A stretch of 64,000 nt of DNA from Prevotella sp. (lineage in GTDB: Bacteria; Bacteroidota; Bacteroidia; Bacteroidales; Bacteroidaceae): positions 1-64,000 of the forward strand of contig JAFZIY010000015.1 of NCBI GenBank assembly GCA_017554105.1, written 5' to 3'. This document shows, one piece after another, positions 6,000 to 58,303 of the stretch. Position numbers and translations under genes: made by a program. A model generated the notes under the pieces. It ran no database searches, was not told the origin of the DNA, and was given only the letters and a program-made list of their open reading frames with translations. Positions within the stretch are counted from its first letter, which is position 1. Each line of letters starts with the position of its first letter.

Positions 6000-6108
6000 A
6001 TTTCTGTTAGCACATATGTAGGGCGGGAATCCGCGCCGACATCCTCGGCCTCGGCTTCTCGCCATTGCTTTCTTATAAAACCTTGAAACAATCCCAAGAC
6101 GACCTCAC

Positions 6109-6130
6109 TATTTTGATTTAAGTCAAAATA
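6109..6130. promoter_or_regulatory. 8-bp dyad upstream of the small ORF promoter
   Basis: TATTTTGA and TCAAAATA flank a 6-bp centre (TTTAAG). The TTGA-N6-TCAA core resembles CRP/FNR-type operators and lies about 60 bp before the -7 box at 6187. The rest of 6000-6160 shows only a GC-rich stretch near 6020-6060 and no gene. Confidence 0.35.
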
Positions 6131-6162
6131 TTATCCGTTTTCATAATTTACAAGGAATAAAT

Positions 6163-6194
6163 ATTGTATCTTTACAATTATCGCCGTACCTTTG
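6163..6194 (+). promoter_or_regulatory. promoter of the 31-residue ORF
   Basis: ATTG at 6163-6166 and TACCTTTG at 6187-6194 are 20 bp apart, a full Bacteroidetes -33/-7 match. Confidence 0.65.
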
Positions 6195-6265
6195 CACTGC
6201 ATTCGAGAGAATGCATCCCAAAAGTTTTCATAGGTTAGTAGTTTGATAGATTTAAGGTAAAGATT

Positions 6266-6361
6266 ATGTTATTAGATTTTGAAACATGCGTAACGTTGGT
6301 CATTGCCGTTATTCTTACAATGCTCTGCATTGTTACTTTGGGTAAAACCAACATACGTTAA
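6266..6361 (+). CDS. 31-residue single-pass membrane peptide
   Basis: An ATG preceded by AAGGTAAAG (a fair ribosome site for this group) opens a 31-codon frame. The peptide begins MLLDFETCV and continues with one hydrophobic helix (TLVIAVILTMLCIVTLG) and a basic end KTNIR. It has its own strong promoter (6163-6194) and is followed by a T-tract at 6401-6410 and a clear terminator at 6421-6450, so it is a complete small transcription unit. No family is recognised. Small membrane proteins of this shape often tune transporters or sensors, but nothing here shows a partner. Confidence 0.55.
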   Translation: MLLDFETCVTLVIAVILTMLCIVTLGKTNIR

Positions 6362-6420
6362 AGTTTTCAGGAGGCCGAAGTGAGAGATTCATATCGTCCT
6401 CTTTTTTTTGTCTAATAACG

Positions 6421-6450
6421 AAAGCTGCCCCACAAGGGCAGTTTTTTTTT
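6421..6450 (+). terminator. intrinsic terminator
   Basis: CTGCCC (6425-6430), loop CACAA, GGGCAG (6436-6441), then nine T. The A-rich left side would also let it work on the minus strand. Confidence 0.85.
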
Positions 6451-6524
6451 GTAAATACATGGCAATATTTATGGAATAACCTTGGTGATGATTATCTTCA
6501 TCATGGTAATTTCGGCGGTTTTAC

Positions 6525-6656
6525 TGAGTAAACCTGCCAGGATTGGTGAGTAAACCTGCCAGGATTACTTTCCGAAAGATGCCTAATCGCACCCTAAAAG
6601 ATGCTATACGACCATCCAAAACATGACGTTTTGCATACCGAAAGATGACGTTTTGC
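6525..6656. repeat. 22-bp-period palindromic array, six units (family 1)
   Basis: Six consecutive 22-bp units. Units 1 and 2 share TGAGTAAACCTGCCAGGATT (6525-6544 and 6547-6566). Units 3-6 carry an AAA(G/C)ATG core at 6575, 6597, 6619 and 6641, exactly 22 bp apart, and units 5 and 6 share ATGACGTTTTGC (6623-6634, 6645-6656). Several units are near-perfect 15-bp dyads: AAACCTGCCAGGATT centred at 6537 and 6559, AAAACATGACGTTTT centred at 6625. The centres therefore fall on one 22-bp grid. No ORF runs through it. Confidence 0.75.
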
Positions 6657-6788
6657 CACGCCATTGCATATCATTTACGAATAGAAGACTCTGCATCGAC
6701 TTTTCTATATATAATAATGTGTAAGTGCAAATTTATTGTTTCGAAATGTTAAATTATTGTTTTTCGATAAATTTTTATTGTAAAATCC

Positions 6789-6819
6789 TTGCACGTTTAA
6801 AATATTCATTATACTTTTG
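6789..6819 (+). promoter_or_regulatory. housekeeping-type promoter of the DUF3836 operon
   Basis: TTG at 6789-6791 and TACTTTTG at 6812-6819 are 20 bp apart. The transcript would begin inside the dyad at 6822-6836. Confidence 0.6.
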
Positions 6820-6821
6820 CA

Positions 6822-6836
6822 TATCGAAAAACGATA
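6822..6836. promoter_or_regulatory. operator candidate TATCGAAAAACGATA
   Basis: A 15-bp dyad (TATCG-AAAAA-CGATA) covers the predicted start site of the promoter at 6789-6819. A second half copy, TTTTTCGATA, lies at 6760-6769. The position suits a repressor. The XRE-type regulator encoded at the end of the same operon (8657-8866) is the obvious candidate, by inference. Confidence 0.5.
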
Positions 6837-6884
6837 AATAAAAATCATAATTCAATAAAAAGAGAAAAAAAGTGATGATTTGAT

Positions 6885-6912
6885 GTAGTTTTTTTGAAGT
6901 ATGAGCGTCTAA
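6885..6912 (+). promoter_or_regulatory. ECF-type promoter before DUF3836
   Basis: GTAGTT (6885-6890), 15 bp, CGTCTAA (6906-6912). The same two boxes with the same 15-bp spacing precede the ECF sigma gene at 11859-11886. Similarity continues downstream (AGAAATCAATAA in both), and CGTC is a classic ECF -10 core. Confidence 0.6.
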
Positions 6913-6968
6913 CGTTCAGAAATCAATAAAACAATTAAACAGAATAAATAACTTAAAATTTCAGAACT

Positions 6969-7454
6969 ATGGATATCATAACTTGGACAGCAGTAACAGT
7001 GATGAGCATGTACATGAACATGAGTTCACAACCGACAAATGGCAATTTCGTGTATAACGCAGAAATGCAGGACGGCAAGATTAGTGCCATTATCTCTTAT
7101 AAGAATGATATGAACTGCCTGACGGCAAACACTAAGCACCTCTACGACTATGACGAGCAGGACCGCGTGGTATCTGACCAGACACTCAGATGGAACACCC
7201 AGAAGGGAGAGTGGATTCCCGTAAAATGCATAGAGTATAGTTATGACGGAAACAACATTACCATGAGCTATATGAAATGGGACAACAAGTGCAACTACTA
7301 TCTGTCTCCTTCAGAGAAAGTGGTTTACACCACTATGGGCAACATGATTACCAGCGTTGAGGAATATAAGACGGACACCAAAGACGGTGAGATGCACCTC
7401 GCAGACCGTTACCTGCTGATGGGCGGTGTAGAGAACATGCTTGCCAAGAATTAA
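6969..7454 (+). CDS. DUF3836 family protein
   Basis: A 161-residue protein of the Bacteroidetes DUF3836 family. It shows the repeated pattern of a YDEQDRV turn near residue 58, KWNTQKGEWIPV-like strands, and a SYDGNNITMSYMKWD repeat near residue 96. The N-terminus (MDIITWTAVTVMSMYMNMSS) is hydrophobic and may act as a signal peptide or membrane anchor. Function is unknown in the family. It is the first gene of a likely operon with DUF2975, an SdpI-like protein and an XRE regulator. It has two promoters, one TAnnTTTG-type with an operator and one ECF-type, so envelope-stress control is suggested. Confidence 0.78.
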   Translation: MDIITWTAVTVMSMYMNMSSQPTNGNFVYNAEMQDGKISAIISYKNDMNCLTANTKHLYDYDEQDRVVSDQTLRWNTQKGEWIPVKCIEYSYDGNNITMSYMKWDNKCNYYLSPSEKVVYTTMGNMITSVEEYKTDTKDGEMHLADRYLLMGGVENMLAKN

Positions 7455-30040: not shown

Positions 30041-30274
30041 ACAAGATATATTCATATTCATTGTTTCTCATATTGTTACTGGAACAATAAAATACCGTCT
30101 TGCCAGAACATTGTCCAGATGGTCTTTGTTAATTTTTTCCATAGGCTTTGCAGTTTGCCGCAAAGATAACAAATTATTTGATAAGTGCCTTATAATTAAC
30201 ACTTTTTTTACCCCACTTTTGGTCTCTTAGAACGTCACTTGTAACTACTTGATTATCAAGAAGCCACAAAACGG

Positions 30275-30362
30275 CTAACAATGTTATTAACTTTGTTGAA
30301 CAAAGTTATTAAGATTGTTGAACAAAGTTAATAACATAGTCGAACAATCTTAATAACATTGT
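30275..30362. repeat. 22-bp-period palindromic array, four units (family 2)
   Basis: Four adjoining 22-bp units start at 30275, 30297, 30319 and 30341. Each has the form AACAA-W-S-TTAWTAA-S-W-TTGTT with small changes; the first is a near-perfect 21-bp dyad centred on GTTATTAAC. The right flank is CCGCCATTTGATACCT. The related array at 58238-58303 has three units and nearly the same right flank. Confidence 0.85.
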
Positions 30363-30522
30363 TCCGCCATTTGATACCTTTTACTTTTCATTTTGCCATA
30401 AGTGACGAAGACACTTGTGTCTTTTCATTGGCAAAATCACATGAGGTTACGACTCGAAAGGTGGTTTCTTACAATATTTGGGGGTATAATATTTGACCCT
30501 GCAATGAGTGGATAGTTTTTGA

Positions 30523-31902: not shown

Positions 31903-33234
31903 ATGACTGACGACATCAACAATCCTATTGGAACACCTCCCATCCCTGGCTCAAATCCGCCTGTTCCACCTGTTCCCGAACCACCAGTACCCGAAATTCC
32001 TGCAGTGCCTGAAGCACCAGTAGTACCGGAAACTCCTGCTGTTCCGGAGGCACCGGCAGTGCCAGAACCACCTGTTGCACCAGAACCAGTGATTCCTGAA
32101 GCACCTGTTGCGCCGGAGCCGGTAATTCCAGAAACTCCAGTAGTGCCGGAACCAGTGATTCCTGAGGCACCTGCTGCACCGGAGCCTGTGATTCCGGAAA
32201 CTCCAGTAGAGCCGGAGCCTGTTGTTCCTGAGGCACCAGTTACACCTGAGCCGGTTGTTCCGGAAACTCCAGTTGTGCCGGAGCCTGTTGTTCCCGAGGC
32301 ACCTGCTGCACCAGAGCCGGTTGTGCCGGAAACTCCAGTTGTGCCGGAACCCATTGTTCCTGAGGCACCTGCTGCACCAGAACCGGTAATCCCGGAAACT
32401 CCAGTTGTGCCAGAACCTATTGTTCCTGAAGCACCTGTTGCACCAGAGCCAGTGATTCCCGAGACACCCGCTACACCAGAGCCGGTAATTCCGGAAACAC
32501 CGGTAGTGCCGGAACCCGTTATTCCAGAGGCACCTGCTGCGCCAGAACCACCTATACAACCAGAAGCAACGATTGTTGCACCTGCCGCTCCTGAGCCACA
32601 GGCAGTGCCAAAACCGGAACCGCCGCAGCCAGCAAAGCCTGCTGCATCAGCAGCACCAAAGGATGCTCCGCGTCCTGCACAGCCTTATGTTAAGCCAAAG
32701 AAGAAGAGTCCTATTGGTCTTATCATTGGACTGCTGCTTGTTCTCCTGCTCCTGCTCGGGGGTATCGGAGCTGCCGTTTACTATTTCTTCTTGAGGGACA
32801 AAGGTACCATCGAACAAGTAGATAACAATAATGATGGTATCGACAACCCTGACAAGACAGACAGGGGTACTACAGACAGCAACTTCGGTGTAAATAAAAA
32901 CGACAACGAAGGCAATAACGAAACCGACAACAACGGTGAGGTAGATAACAACAATACTAATAACATCGATGACGACGGTCTGGAAAGACAGCCAACCAGT
33001 GGAGACGACCCCGAGGTGGATACCAGACAGCAGTATTCTCAAGACGATGTTCCTTCTTTGCCAAAGCAGACAACAACAACGACAAAGCCTGCAACAACAA
33101 AGAAGAAGGCAAGCAACTATAACACCACAAGGCAAAAGACCTATCCTCAGCAGAACAACTCGAACAACAACTCATACGAGACACAGAAGACAAGTTCGAG
33201 CAAGCGAGGATGGCATCTTGAACCAGTAAACTAA
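31903..33234 (+). CDS. Pro-Glu-rich repeat single-pass membrane protein
   Basis: A 443-residue low-complexity protein in three parts. Residues 1-230 carry about ten copies of a 12-residue [11 protein letters not shown] / [11 protein letters not shown] type unit, alternating into 24-residue pairs. Residues 231-272 are a Pro/Lys spacer ending KPKKKSP. One membrane helix spans about 274-297 ([20 protein letters not shown]). Residues 298-443 are Asn/Asp/Thr-rich and disordered. With KPKKK before the helix, the repeat side is probably cytoplasmic and the tail external. No catalytic domain. It may be a spacer or scaffold, and the DNA repeats make length variation likely. Confidence 0.75.
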
Positions 33235-44050: not shown

Positions 44051-44182
44051 TACCAGTGGCTGGTAATGGTCTTACCAATGGCTGGTAAGGATGTTACCAG
44101 TATCTGGTAAGGCGGTCACCAATGGCTGGTAAGGTGATTACAAGCGGCTGGTAACACGATTACCAAAAAAGGGTACACGCTT
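44051..44182. repeat. 22-bp-period palindromic array, six units (family 3)
   Basis: Units start at 44051, 44073, 44095, 44117, 44139 and 44161, all exactly 22 bp apart. The core is TACCAGTGGCTGGTA, a 15-bp near-perfect dyad, followed by a variable 7-bp linker (ATGGTCT, AGGATGT, AGGCGGT and so on). The last unit (TACCAAAAAAGGGTA) is degenerate. It lies between the GH3-type gene and the Ig lipoprotein, close to the latter's start. Confidence 0.88.
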
Positions 44183-44202
44183 TGGTAAATTGCAAACCGC
44201 TC

Positions 44203-45762
44203 TTATCGCTTGTCATTCAGCGATATAAGTTGTTCTATGTGCTCACGGCTGTTGCTCAGTCGTGGCACCTTGTTCTGACCTCCGAGTTTGCCTCTCGACT
44301 TCATCCATTCCTCAAAGAGTCCCTGACGGGCATCGATTATCTCGAGATGCTGCAGTGTTATGTCCTTATATCGCTTTGCCTCATAGTCGCTGTTTATCTC
44401 CTGCAGTTTCTCATCGAGCAAGTCACCGAAACGCTCCAGTGAGTCGGGACGGCGCGAGAACTCTATCAGCCACTGGTGACGGCACTTAGCATTGCCGTCC
44501 ATGAACACCGGTGCGGCGGTATATTCCAGCACCTCGGCACCCGTCTCGCGGCATGCGTAGGCAAGTCCCTGCTCGGCATTGTCAACAATCAGTTCCTCGC
44601 CGAAGGCATTGATGAAGTGCTTCGTGCGTCCCGTGATGACAAACTTATATGGCTTGACGCTCGTGAAACGCACGGTGTCGCCGATGACATAGCGCCACAG
44701 ACCGCACGTTGTGCTGATAAGCATGGCGTAGTTGACACCCACCTCCACTCCTTCGAGCGGCACGATGCATGCCTGTTTCTCCGGTTCTATCTGCTGACTC
44801 GCCATTCCTGCGGTGGCAATGGCATCAGGGAACTTGTCCATAGGAATGAACTCATAGAACACCCCGTAGTCAAGCATCAGCAGCAACGACGGGTCGGTGG
44901 GGTCGTTCTGCAGTCCGAAGAACCCCTCGCTGGCATTATATGTCTCCATATAGTGCATGTCGGGAGAGGTTATCAACTGCTCATACTGCTTGCGGTAGGG
45001 CGTGAATGCCACACCACCGTGGAAGAACACCTCAAGGTTTGGCCACACCTCGTTGAGGTATTTCTTACCTGAGAGTTCCATGACACGCATCAGCACTGAG
45101 AGCATCCACGATGGAACGCCACTCAGATTGGTCACGTTCTTGTCAAGTGTCTCATGCGCAATGCGATTGCGTTTCAGTTCAAAGTCACTCAGCAAAGCCG
45201 TCTGTTTCTTAGGCACTCTTACCAGATTTGCCAGCGGACTGATGTTCTCGATGAGTATCGCACTGAGGTCTCCCACTAGCGAACCGGGCAGGTTATAGTT
45301 GGGCGAGTGGCTACCGCCGAGGATAAGGGCACGCCCGTCGAATATCTTACTCTTCGGATTGTTCTTCAGATACATCGCAACGGCATCTTTGCCGCCCTGA
45401 TAGTGCATCGCCTGTAGTCCCTCACTGCTCACGGGAATGAACTTCGATTTGTCGTTGGTCGTTCCCGATGACTTGGCATACCACTTCACCTGTCCTGGCC
45501 ATAGCACACTCTGCTCGCCGTGGCGCATGCGGTCGATGTCGCCCTTCAACTCCTCGTAGGTGTTCAATGGCACCATTTGCGAGAAGTCGTTATATTTCTT
45601 TATAGCATTGAAAGAGTGCTTCTGTCCGTATTCCGTGTTCTTGCCACACTCGATGAGGTGGTTTAGTGCCGACTGTTGCAACTGCAACGGCGCACTGTTA
45701 TGCAGCAACAGTTTCTTCTGTCGCGGCACAAACACATTCCTAATAATACCTGTTAGACTCAT
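44203..45762 (-). CDS. GH3 auxin-responsive-promoter family acyl-adenylating enzyme
   Basis: A 519-residue member of the GH3 family (plant hormone-amino acid synthetase-like, ANL superfamily). Landmarks: YAKSSGTTNDKSKFIPVS (ATP loop) near 92-109, GGVAFTPYRKQYEQL, MHYMETYNASEGFFGLQND, and WRYVIGDTVRFTSVKPYKFV with GRTKHFINAFGEEL. It would activate a carboxylic acid with ATP and join it to an amine; bacterial substrates are unknown. The start at 45762 (MSLTGIIRNV) sits 35 nt after the promoter in module A. Confidence 0.92.
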   Translation of the reverse strand: MSLTGIIRNVFVPRQKKLLLHNSAPLQLQQSALNHLIECGKNTEYGQKHSFNAIKKYNDFSQMVPLNTYEELKGDIDRMRHGEQSVLWPGQVKWYAKSSGTTNDKSKFIPVSSEGLQAMHYQGGKDAVAMYLKNNPKSKIFDGRALILGGSHSPNYNLPGSLVGDLSAILIENISPLANLVRVPKKQTALLSDFELKRNRIAHETLDKNVTNLSGVPSWMLSVLMRVMELSGKKYLNEVWPNLEVFFHGGVAFTPYRKQYEQLITSPDMHYMETYNASEGFFGLQNDPTDPSLLLMLDYGVFYEFIPMDKFPDAIATAGMASQQIEPEKQACIVPLEGVEVGVNYAMLISTTCGLWRYVIGDTVRFTSVKPYKFVITGRTKHFINAFGEELIVDNAEQGLAYACRETGAEVLEYTAAPVFMDGNAKCRHQWLIEFSRRPDSLERFGDLLDEKLQEINSDYEAKRYKDITLQHLEIIDARQGLFEEWMKSRGKLGGQNKVPRLSNSREHIEQLISLNDKR

Positions 45763-45802
45763 TCTGAATAATTCTAAACTCAGGTTCGATTTCTTTCCGC
45801 CT

Positions 45803-45920
45803 GCAAAGTTAGTGCAAACCGAAGACAATACAAAATAAAAGCAATTTTATTTTTATTGTTGAGGTGCAGCCTAACTTCATGGAGCAAAGCGACATAAAGT
45901 TACGATTAAGTGAGTGAAAA
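45803..45920 (-). promoter_or_regulatory. promoter module with upstream hairpin, copy A
   Basis: Read on the minus strand: TCACTTAATCG, a hairpin TAACTTTATG...CATGAAGTTA, GGCTGCACCTC, an AT-rich run with TTTTGTATTG, then TTTGCACTAACTTTGCA with -7 box TAACTTTG (45811-45804). It is nearly identical over about 115 bp to copy B (52159-52272). It drives the GH3-type gene, and the hairpin may also end trmH transcription. Confidence 0.7.
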
Positions 45921-58237: not shown

Positions 58238-58303
58238 CTAACAATGTTATTAACTTTGTTGAACAAAGTTATTAAGATTGTTGAACAAAGTTAATAACTT
58301 TGT
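58238..58303. repeat. 22-bp-period palindromic array, three units (family 2)
   Basis: Units at 58238, 58260 and 58282. The first two are identical to the first two of the array at 30275. It lacks one unit relative to that array, but the right flank CGCCGTTTGATATCT matches. It lies between the CoA-transferase terminator and the convergent GH3 gene. Confidence 0.85.

Follow-up and report, generated by a model that had tools for sequence, protein, structure and literature searches.

Tandem arrays with a constant period of 22 bp are dispersed through the intergenic DNA of a Prevotella genome, in families whose unit sequences differ, and most of them lie close behind the 3' ends of genes. The 22-bp period rule extends through Prevotellaceae and is rare in the other Bacteroidales families sampled. 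These arrays are read here, with a little under even confidence, as dispersed gene-end elements phased for a putative cooperative protein that would bind double-stranded DNA and whose recognition core changes.

Arrays of the window and their dispersed families

The window, meaning the whole 64-kb stretch of DNA analysed, belongs to a genome of 3.12 Mb in 32 contigs, labelled G000, and its sister species is labelled G028. Exactly four period-22 rows were returned by TRF in the window, at 6525, 30277, 44051 and 58240, and all of them lie between genes called by our own simple gene caller, as the original prediction had described. At 6525..6657 (no strand assigned), six units occupy one 22-bp grid. 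The dyad centres proposed for them, 6537 to 6647, score 31 of 48 pairs, compared with 29 for the best six-unit grid in 50 shuffled windows, which bears out the proposal, although the units at 6581 and 6603 are weak, with 3 of 8 dyad pairs each. Four-unit dyad grids in the real window reach 26 at period 22 and at most 22 at all other periods from 16 to 30. The units of this array belong to family 3, with the form AAW-N4-S-N4-WTT plus a 7-nt linker, and the CCTG core is present in two of the six, exactly at 6530-6544 and 6552-6566. The gap detector used in the wider counts recovers three of the four window arrays and misses the 6525 array because its units are too dissimilar.

The arrays at 30277..30363, with four 22-bp units, and at 58240..58303, a copy with three units (neither assigned a strand), form one family that is near-identical across about 60 bp, so the window contains three unit families rather than four. 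The earlier statement that the arrays differ in sequence therefore holds for three families and fails for this pair, and one of the families shares its scaffold with G028. In family 1, half-sites of the form AACAA(AG/TG/TC)TTA flip orientation every 11 bp, and an imperfect palindrome adjoins the array in most copies, as at 30238..30276 (no strand assigned, limits set by eye). The family-2 array at 44051..44159, on the minus strand, consists of five 22-bp units of the form TTACCAG...CTGGTAA, 17 nt plus a 5-nt linker. It is followed at 44160..44188, on the same strand, by the longer end palindrome of the element, 29 nt with a free-sequence loop; 14 nt then separate this palindrome from the stop codon that ends the gene at 44203-45828.

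An Rfam search of the whole window at the gathering threshold returned a cobalamin riboswitch alone (RF00174, 741-988, 35.2 bits), with no match at the arrays, and a known RNA family was rejected on this result. CRISPR, which had already been excluded in the original prediction, was rejected as well, since one unit directly follows the next across linkers of 1-7 nt, with no distinct spacers and no Rfam match. Within coding DNA, a tandem repeat of 33/66 bp occupies 32065-32550 of the window, inside the ORF 31903-33234.

Whole-genome DNA searches of G000 with families 1, 2 and 3 gave 67, 20 and 27 matches, respectively. By our own count from the match lists, in which some matches are weak, these correspond to 34, 19 and 18 distinct places, query included, or about 71 together. 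The core pattern adds at least three family-3 places (C15:286687, C25:110440 and C32:37853), and further array families are found at C29:61556 and C15:145807. Arrays hold about 3-6 units, and family-1 copies vary from 3 to 5. Family-2 elements have an ordered set of units in common, and many carry the longer end palindrome of 28-29 nt. In a set of 199 congeneric genomes besides G000, family 2 matched 7 (best E 9.5e-10), while family 1 is also present in G028, with 82 matches on both strands. For one 662-aa protein of G000, the closest named relatives among the matches listed were Prevotella sp. UBA4330 (79% identity) and P. koreensis (73%).

Period, phase and base pairing

In the stretches of G000 and G028, which were taken from contigs already known to carry arrays, period 22 is prominent. 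Palindromic four-unit grids in 464 kb of G000 occur nine times at period 22, five times at 33, and once at 44, with every other period in the range 16-44 unrepresented, and one shuffled copy contained none. Among G000 gaps of at least 150 bp, 16 of 129 carry a period-22 array (13 of 112 outside the window and 3 of 17 inside), and within the range 16-30 no second period appears in any of them; in coding pieces of the same genome, arrays of period 20-24 were found in 0 of 674. For G028 the period-22 count is 42 of 242, and its gaps show other periods as well (16 in 14 gaps, 24 in 9, 21 in 6, 28 in 4 and five more in 1-2 each). Across Prevotellaceae, in a gap set made up of 80 loci fetched via one protein, 15 of 119 gaps of at least 120 bp carry a period-22 array, and periods 16 and 21 occur once each. 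Twenty stretches from other families of Bacteroidales, 396 kb in all, yielded two period-22 matches by autocorrelation and none by dyads. The autocorrelation set of 20 congeners includes G028, which is the source of three of its six period-22 matches.

A lack of 22-bp excess in related genomes had been named as the refutation test of the original prediction; the excess is present both in G028 and in Prevotellaceae, and G000 and the family alike combine a fixed period with free sequence. Other periods were encountered as well: the congener G016 (L111-L120) shows a 41-bp period in both autocorrelation and palindromic-grid counts, alongside 22-bp arrays, and congeners at L265, L267 and L272 carry 7-bp tandem repeats of the TCAACTG type, which appear as period 21.

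Phase is closely kept within the arrays. In the sampled stretches, the step between successive perfect cores is 22 bp for all 36 ATAG cases in G028 and for 15 of 16 CCTG cases in G000, the remaining one being 44; at least one 21-bp step, from C5:11964 to 11985 in G028, occurs among the matches listed. Indels are also few, at 10 per 266 substitutions in arrays and 63 per 506 in other intergenic DNA (p = 2e-4), in a comparison of few pairs and two alignment modes whose comparison set itself includes array-bearing gaps, and in which family 3 contributes the 4 pairs left after seven rows pairing one locus with itself were dropped. Palindromic form is more variable: in a set of 78 strong period-22 arrays that counts three G028 arrays twice, 39 are clear palindromes, 28 are weak, 9 are not palindromic and 2 have a shorter period. 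The half-site geometry is therefore not universal, since only half of the strong arrays are clearly palindromic.

The results of several tests speak against base pairing, and stem pairing is not kept. The opposite W positions of AAW...WTT units are complementary in 43 of 106 cases, about chance level, with similar outcomes by core (CCTG 14/34, TTCG 5/11, ATAG 24/61). Independent halves would match in 38% of family-1 units in G000 and in 45% in G028, but the observed counts of matched halves are 5 of 73 and 26 of 112, respectively. Family-2 stems, oriented for the mismatch counts by their end palindrome, show no clear wobble excess (55 G-T against 41 A-C mismatch cells, p = 0.18), and once one recurrent position (position 7) is removed the counts become 16 G-T and 35 A-C. 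A reader of double-stranded DNA would fit these results, because the phase is exact without a base-pairing constraint. Additionally, a step of two turns is compatible with a protein that touches the helix from one side, and bacterial DNA in vivo shows 11-bp periodicity.

Switched cores, persistent slots and gene ends

In one family, the outer AAW/WTT and many linkers are common to the two sister species and the core differs. Family-3 units of G000 follow AAW-CCTG-S-CAGG-WTT (also with TTCG), with 7-nt linkers, and a family of G028 follows AAW-ATAG-S-CTAT-WTT. Over whole genomes, the CCTG core occurs 39 times in G000 and 0 times in G028, the ATAG core 0 times in G000 and 174 times in G028, and a reversed control pattern 0 times in either. 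Eight linker heptamers are common to both genomes, covering 24 of 64 linkers in G000 and 18 of 45 in G028. When the scaffold was fitted by column permutation to 82 arrays, 28 fitted at p <= 0.01 and 42 at p <= 0.05, the scaffold having been drawn up after most of the tested arrays had been viewed and the test set including the arrays that suggested it. Fits at p <= 0.01 include P. histicola (L138), P. falsenii (L146), L143 and L193, all seen before the scaffold was written, and the arrays that fail to fit it include L147, L163, L169, L188 and L189.

The place of an array can outlast its units. The gap at 6525 holds a family-3 array in G000 and a family-1 array in G028, between flanks that are nearly identical on both sides; this swap was left out of the slot count because it was found starting from G028 array loci. 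Among 26 gaps with both neighbours orthologous, G028 carries an array in 6 of 6 gaps with a G000 array and in 2 of 20 without, the six loci having been chosen for their arrays on the G000 side and not on the G028 side. Three of the six persistent slots hold the same family and three hold another unit. Grouped by gap size, the contrast is 6/6 against 2/7 at 100 bp or more (p = 0.02) and 5/5 against 2/5 at 150 bp or more (p = 0.17), and the chance of six of six at the base rate of 42/242 is 3e-5. Comparisons with one conserved side gave 8/14 against 4/9 downstream (p = 0.68) and 4/7 against 2/18 upstream (p = 0.03). A different word at one spot in sister species suggests a protein that reads the spacing.

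A similar pattern was observed at family level, where, in 80 Prevotellaceae loci, arrays occupy 12 of 50 gaps before the gene upstream of the query orthologue and 3 of 66 other gaps (p = 0.004), in a comparison with unmatched gap lengths and with a few close relatives among the 50. The gene in question was taken as a GH3-domain gene by position and length, and the units in the gap upstream of it differ between species. Two further observations concern particular loci. The flanks of the 6525 array, at 6107-6454 and 6696-7135 of the window (L306), are near-identical between G000 and G028 with non-coding DNA included, a hint of conserved regulatory sequence. In the orthologous gap L308/L006, both species carry a family-1 array, but its two inner units point one way in one species and the opposite way in the other, as if inverted between flanking half-sites.

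With respect to genes, arrays favour the 3' side. By our own tally, on which a sign test was run, the upstream stop is closer than the next start for 25 of the 27 arrays in tandem gaps. Of 52 loci, 46 have a gene whose 3' end faces the array, at a median stop-to-array distance of about 63 nt, and among the 43 arrays no more than 400 nt from a stop, 37 have no recognisable terminator in between; the 52 loci used for stop distances and terminators differ slightly from the family-based orientation list. That list covers 22 of the 34 family-1 places, with distances running from the match rather than the element edge, after duplicates and the contig-end locus L056 were dropped, and six of its loci are classed as edge, having no called neighbour on one side. 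Convergent gaps are over-represented in the family-based loci (18/52 against 17/167), an enrichment absent from the gap-based counts of three sets, where arrays occupy 2/11, 7/36 and 1/13 convergent gaps, 4/34, 8/58 and 1/27 divergent gaps, and 10/84, 27/148 and 13/76 tandem gaps. No common family emerged among the neighbouring genes: among the 25 Pfam families listed of 153, which are mostly metabolic and varied, none occurs in more than 2 of 95 neighbours, and a common neighbouring gene function was rejected as an account of the arrays.

Known systems and competing explanations

The original prediction had known of no named system that follows this rule, a view that was not supported. The same rule is treated as an enigma for many bacteria in the passages available from Subirana & Messeguer (PMC8161180), and a 23-nt relative is BrickBuilt (PMC4596501). 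The former describe constant-size satellites of 20-21 and 52 nt in Bacillus and of 20-23 nt in many groups, species-specific and variable in sequence, with signals shared within a species and with a function left open, for which a polymerising protein or a small RNA is proposed. According to the same passages, the 52-nt satellites combine constant and variable regions, often have signals together with their reverse, and are partially conserved between strains, while the search rule demanded at least four repeats per array (PMC8161180). Passages of another report describe the 52-nt satellites as transcribed in Bacillus coagulans (PMC8625621).

Like the 20-23-nt satellites, the arrays described here are non-coding and tandemly repeated, keep one unit size and fall into several sequence families that share a period within one genome. 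Species-specific sequence is another likeness, yet family 1 is common to G000 and G028, and some of the present arrays fall below the four-repeat rule. They differ in combining a 22-bp period with palindromic half-sites on an 11-bp grid and mostly 3-6 units; a scaffold common to two species with a switched core, and persistent slots with swapped units, are absent from the satellite passages (PMC8161180). The kind of element is thus already known, and the 11-bp half-site grid with its few indels, the loss of stem pairing, the bias towards gene 3' ends, the core switch and the slot swaps are added here. No description of the 22-bp rule in Prevotella was found in the open-licence PubMed Central literature.

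BrickBuilt, a MITE of Porphyromonas gingivalis with a 23-nt tandem unit and 19 copies in one strain, is alike in its Bacteroidales host, its intergenic position and a tandem unit without spacers (PMC4596501). Its flanking segments have inverted-repeat ends most like ISPg1/ISPg9; among the present arrays, most family-1 copies have an end palindrome beside them. BrickBuilt is one family of 23 nt, its passages contain no period rule across families, and the string "palindrom" is absent from the main text (PMC4596501), whereas the present unit is 22 bp and so falls outside a 23-nt definition. Another relative by description is PINSR, the 188-bp repeat of Prevotella intermedia/nigrescens with 177 and 184 copies in two strains, which is likewise lineage-specific, intergenic and highly copied in Prevotella; compared by description only, it has no terminal inverted repeats and no 22-bp structure in the passages seen (PMC4755523).

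The order of units shared between family-2 loci and the palindromes at the ends of family 1 indicate that whole elements were copied. They might accordingly be dispersed repeats of a selfish or neutral kind, similar to REP/BIME or MITEs, copied whole by a transposase or by recombination and surviving near 3' ends as nothing is harmed there, with the 22-bp period arising from the way the copying or slippage machinery works; we regard this account as possible but not probable. REP/BIME elements with RAYT are many-copy, species-specific palindromes at gene 3' ends, although we know of no REP units on a fixed 22-bp grid. Copying of this kind would cover the dispersal and the tolerance of 3' ends, and it agrees with the species-specific distribution of family 2 and with the G028 array L299, which has no counterpart behind the orthologous G000 gene, the other side of that gap not being conserved. 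It does not by itself explain why the same 22 bp recurs in unrelated families and species, why divergent copies have few indels, or why one orthologous gap again holds arrays with other units. Moreover, REP/BIME-RAYT itself was rejected: both Y1 (RAYT-like) transposase genes of G000 (L078, C29:322848; L079, C15:248480) are flanked within 1.5 kb by other inverted repeats and not by 22-bp arrays, as judged by eye. A purely mutational origin, in which slippage or repair duplicates two-turn segments with turnover too fast for indels to gather, would suit the tandem structure and the variable unit number of family 1, but is very improbable given the many substitutions between units of one array, the unit order kept between loci and the fact that, of the periods 16-30, G000 gaps show 22 alone.

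The arrays could instead act at the RNA level, as transcribed strings of hairpins that stop transcription or protect mRNA ends. Most arrays may indeed be transcribed and act as RNA, because 37 of 43 have no terminator between them and the gene; their short distance from the stop, their place beside the upstream gene in tandem gaps and the transcription of 52-nt satellites in B. coagulans, as described in passages of PMC8625621, agree with such a role. Hairpins, however, do not need an exact linker length and phase, the stems vary without compensation and lack a clear wobble excess, family 1 avoids matched halves, some 22-bp arrays are weakly palindromic or not at all, and family-2 elements are oriented to the upstream gene only by about 12 to 5 (hand tally). 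Taken together, an RNA-level function seems improbable.

For the favoured reading, that of elements phased for a DNA-binding protein, we infer a protein, its lattice and a boundary function from the period, phase and placement of the arrays. The 22-bp phase would most likely be set by a putative cooperative double-strand DNA-binding protein or a small protein family, whose subunits would line up along one side of the DNA, one for each turn and each facing opposite to the last. Recognition would rest with the core of the unit, which changes between species; the scaffold around it and the phase would persist, as would the genomic slot in the few testable cases. The likely consequence would be that a roadblock or boundary separates adjacent transcription units. 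A bolder form, which we consider doubtful, is a dialect system in which Prevotellaceae maintain lattice sites at fixed slots behind genes while every core in a genome changes in concert, as from CCTG to ATAG, within an unaltered 22-bp scaffold, tracking a fast-evolving putative protein.

The function of constant-size satellites is open in print, and sister genomes with the same scaffold, several of the same slots and different cores offer a direct test of it. If a lattice protein is found, it would mean that gene boundaries or the nucleoid are organised at a new level in bacteria common in the gut and mouth.
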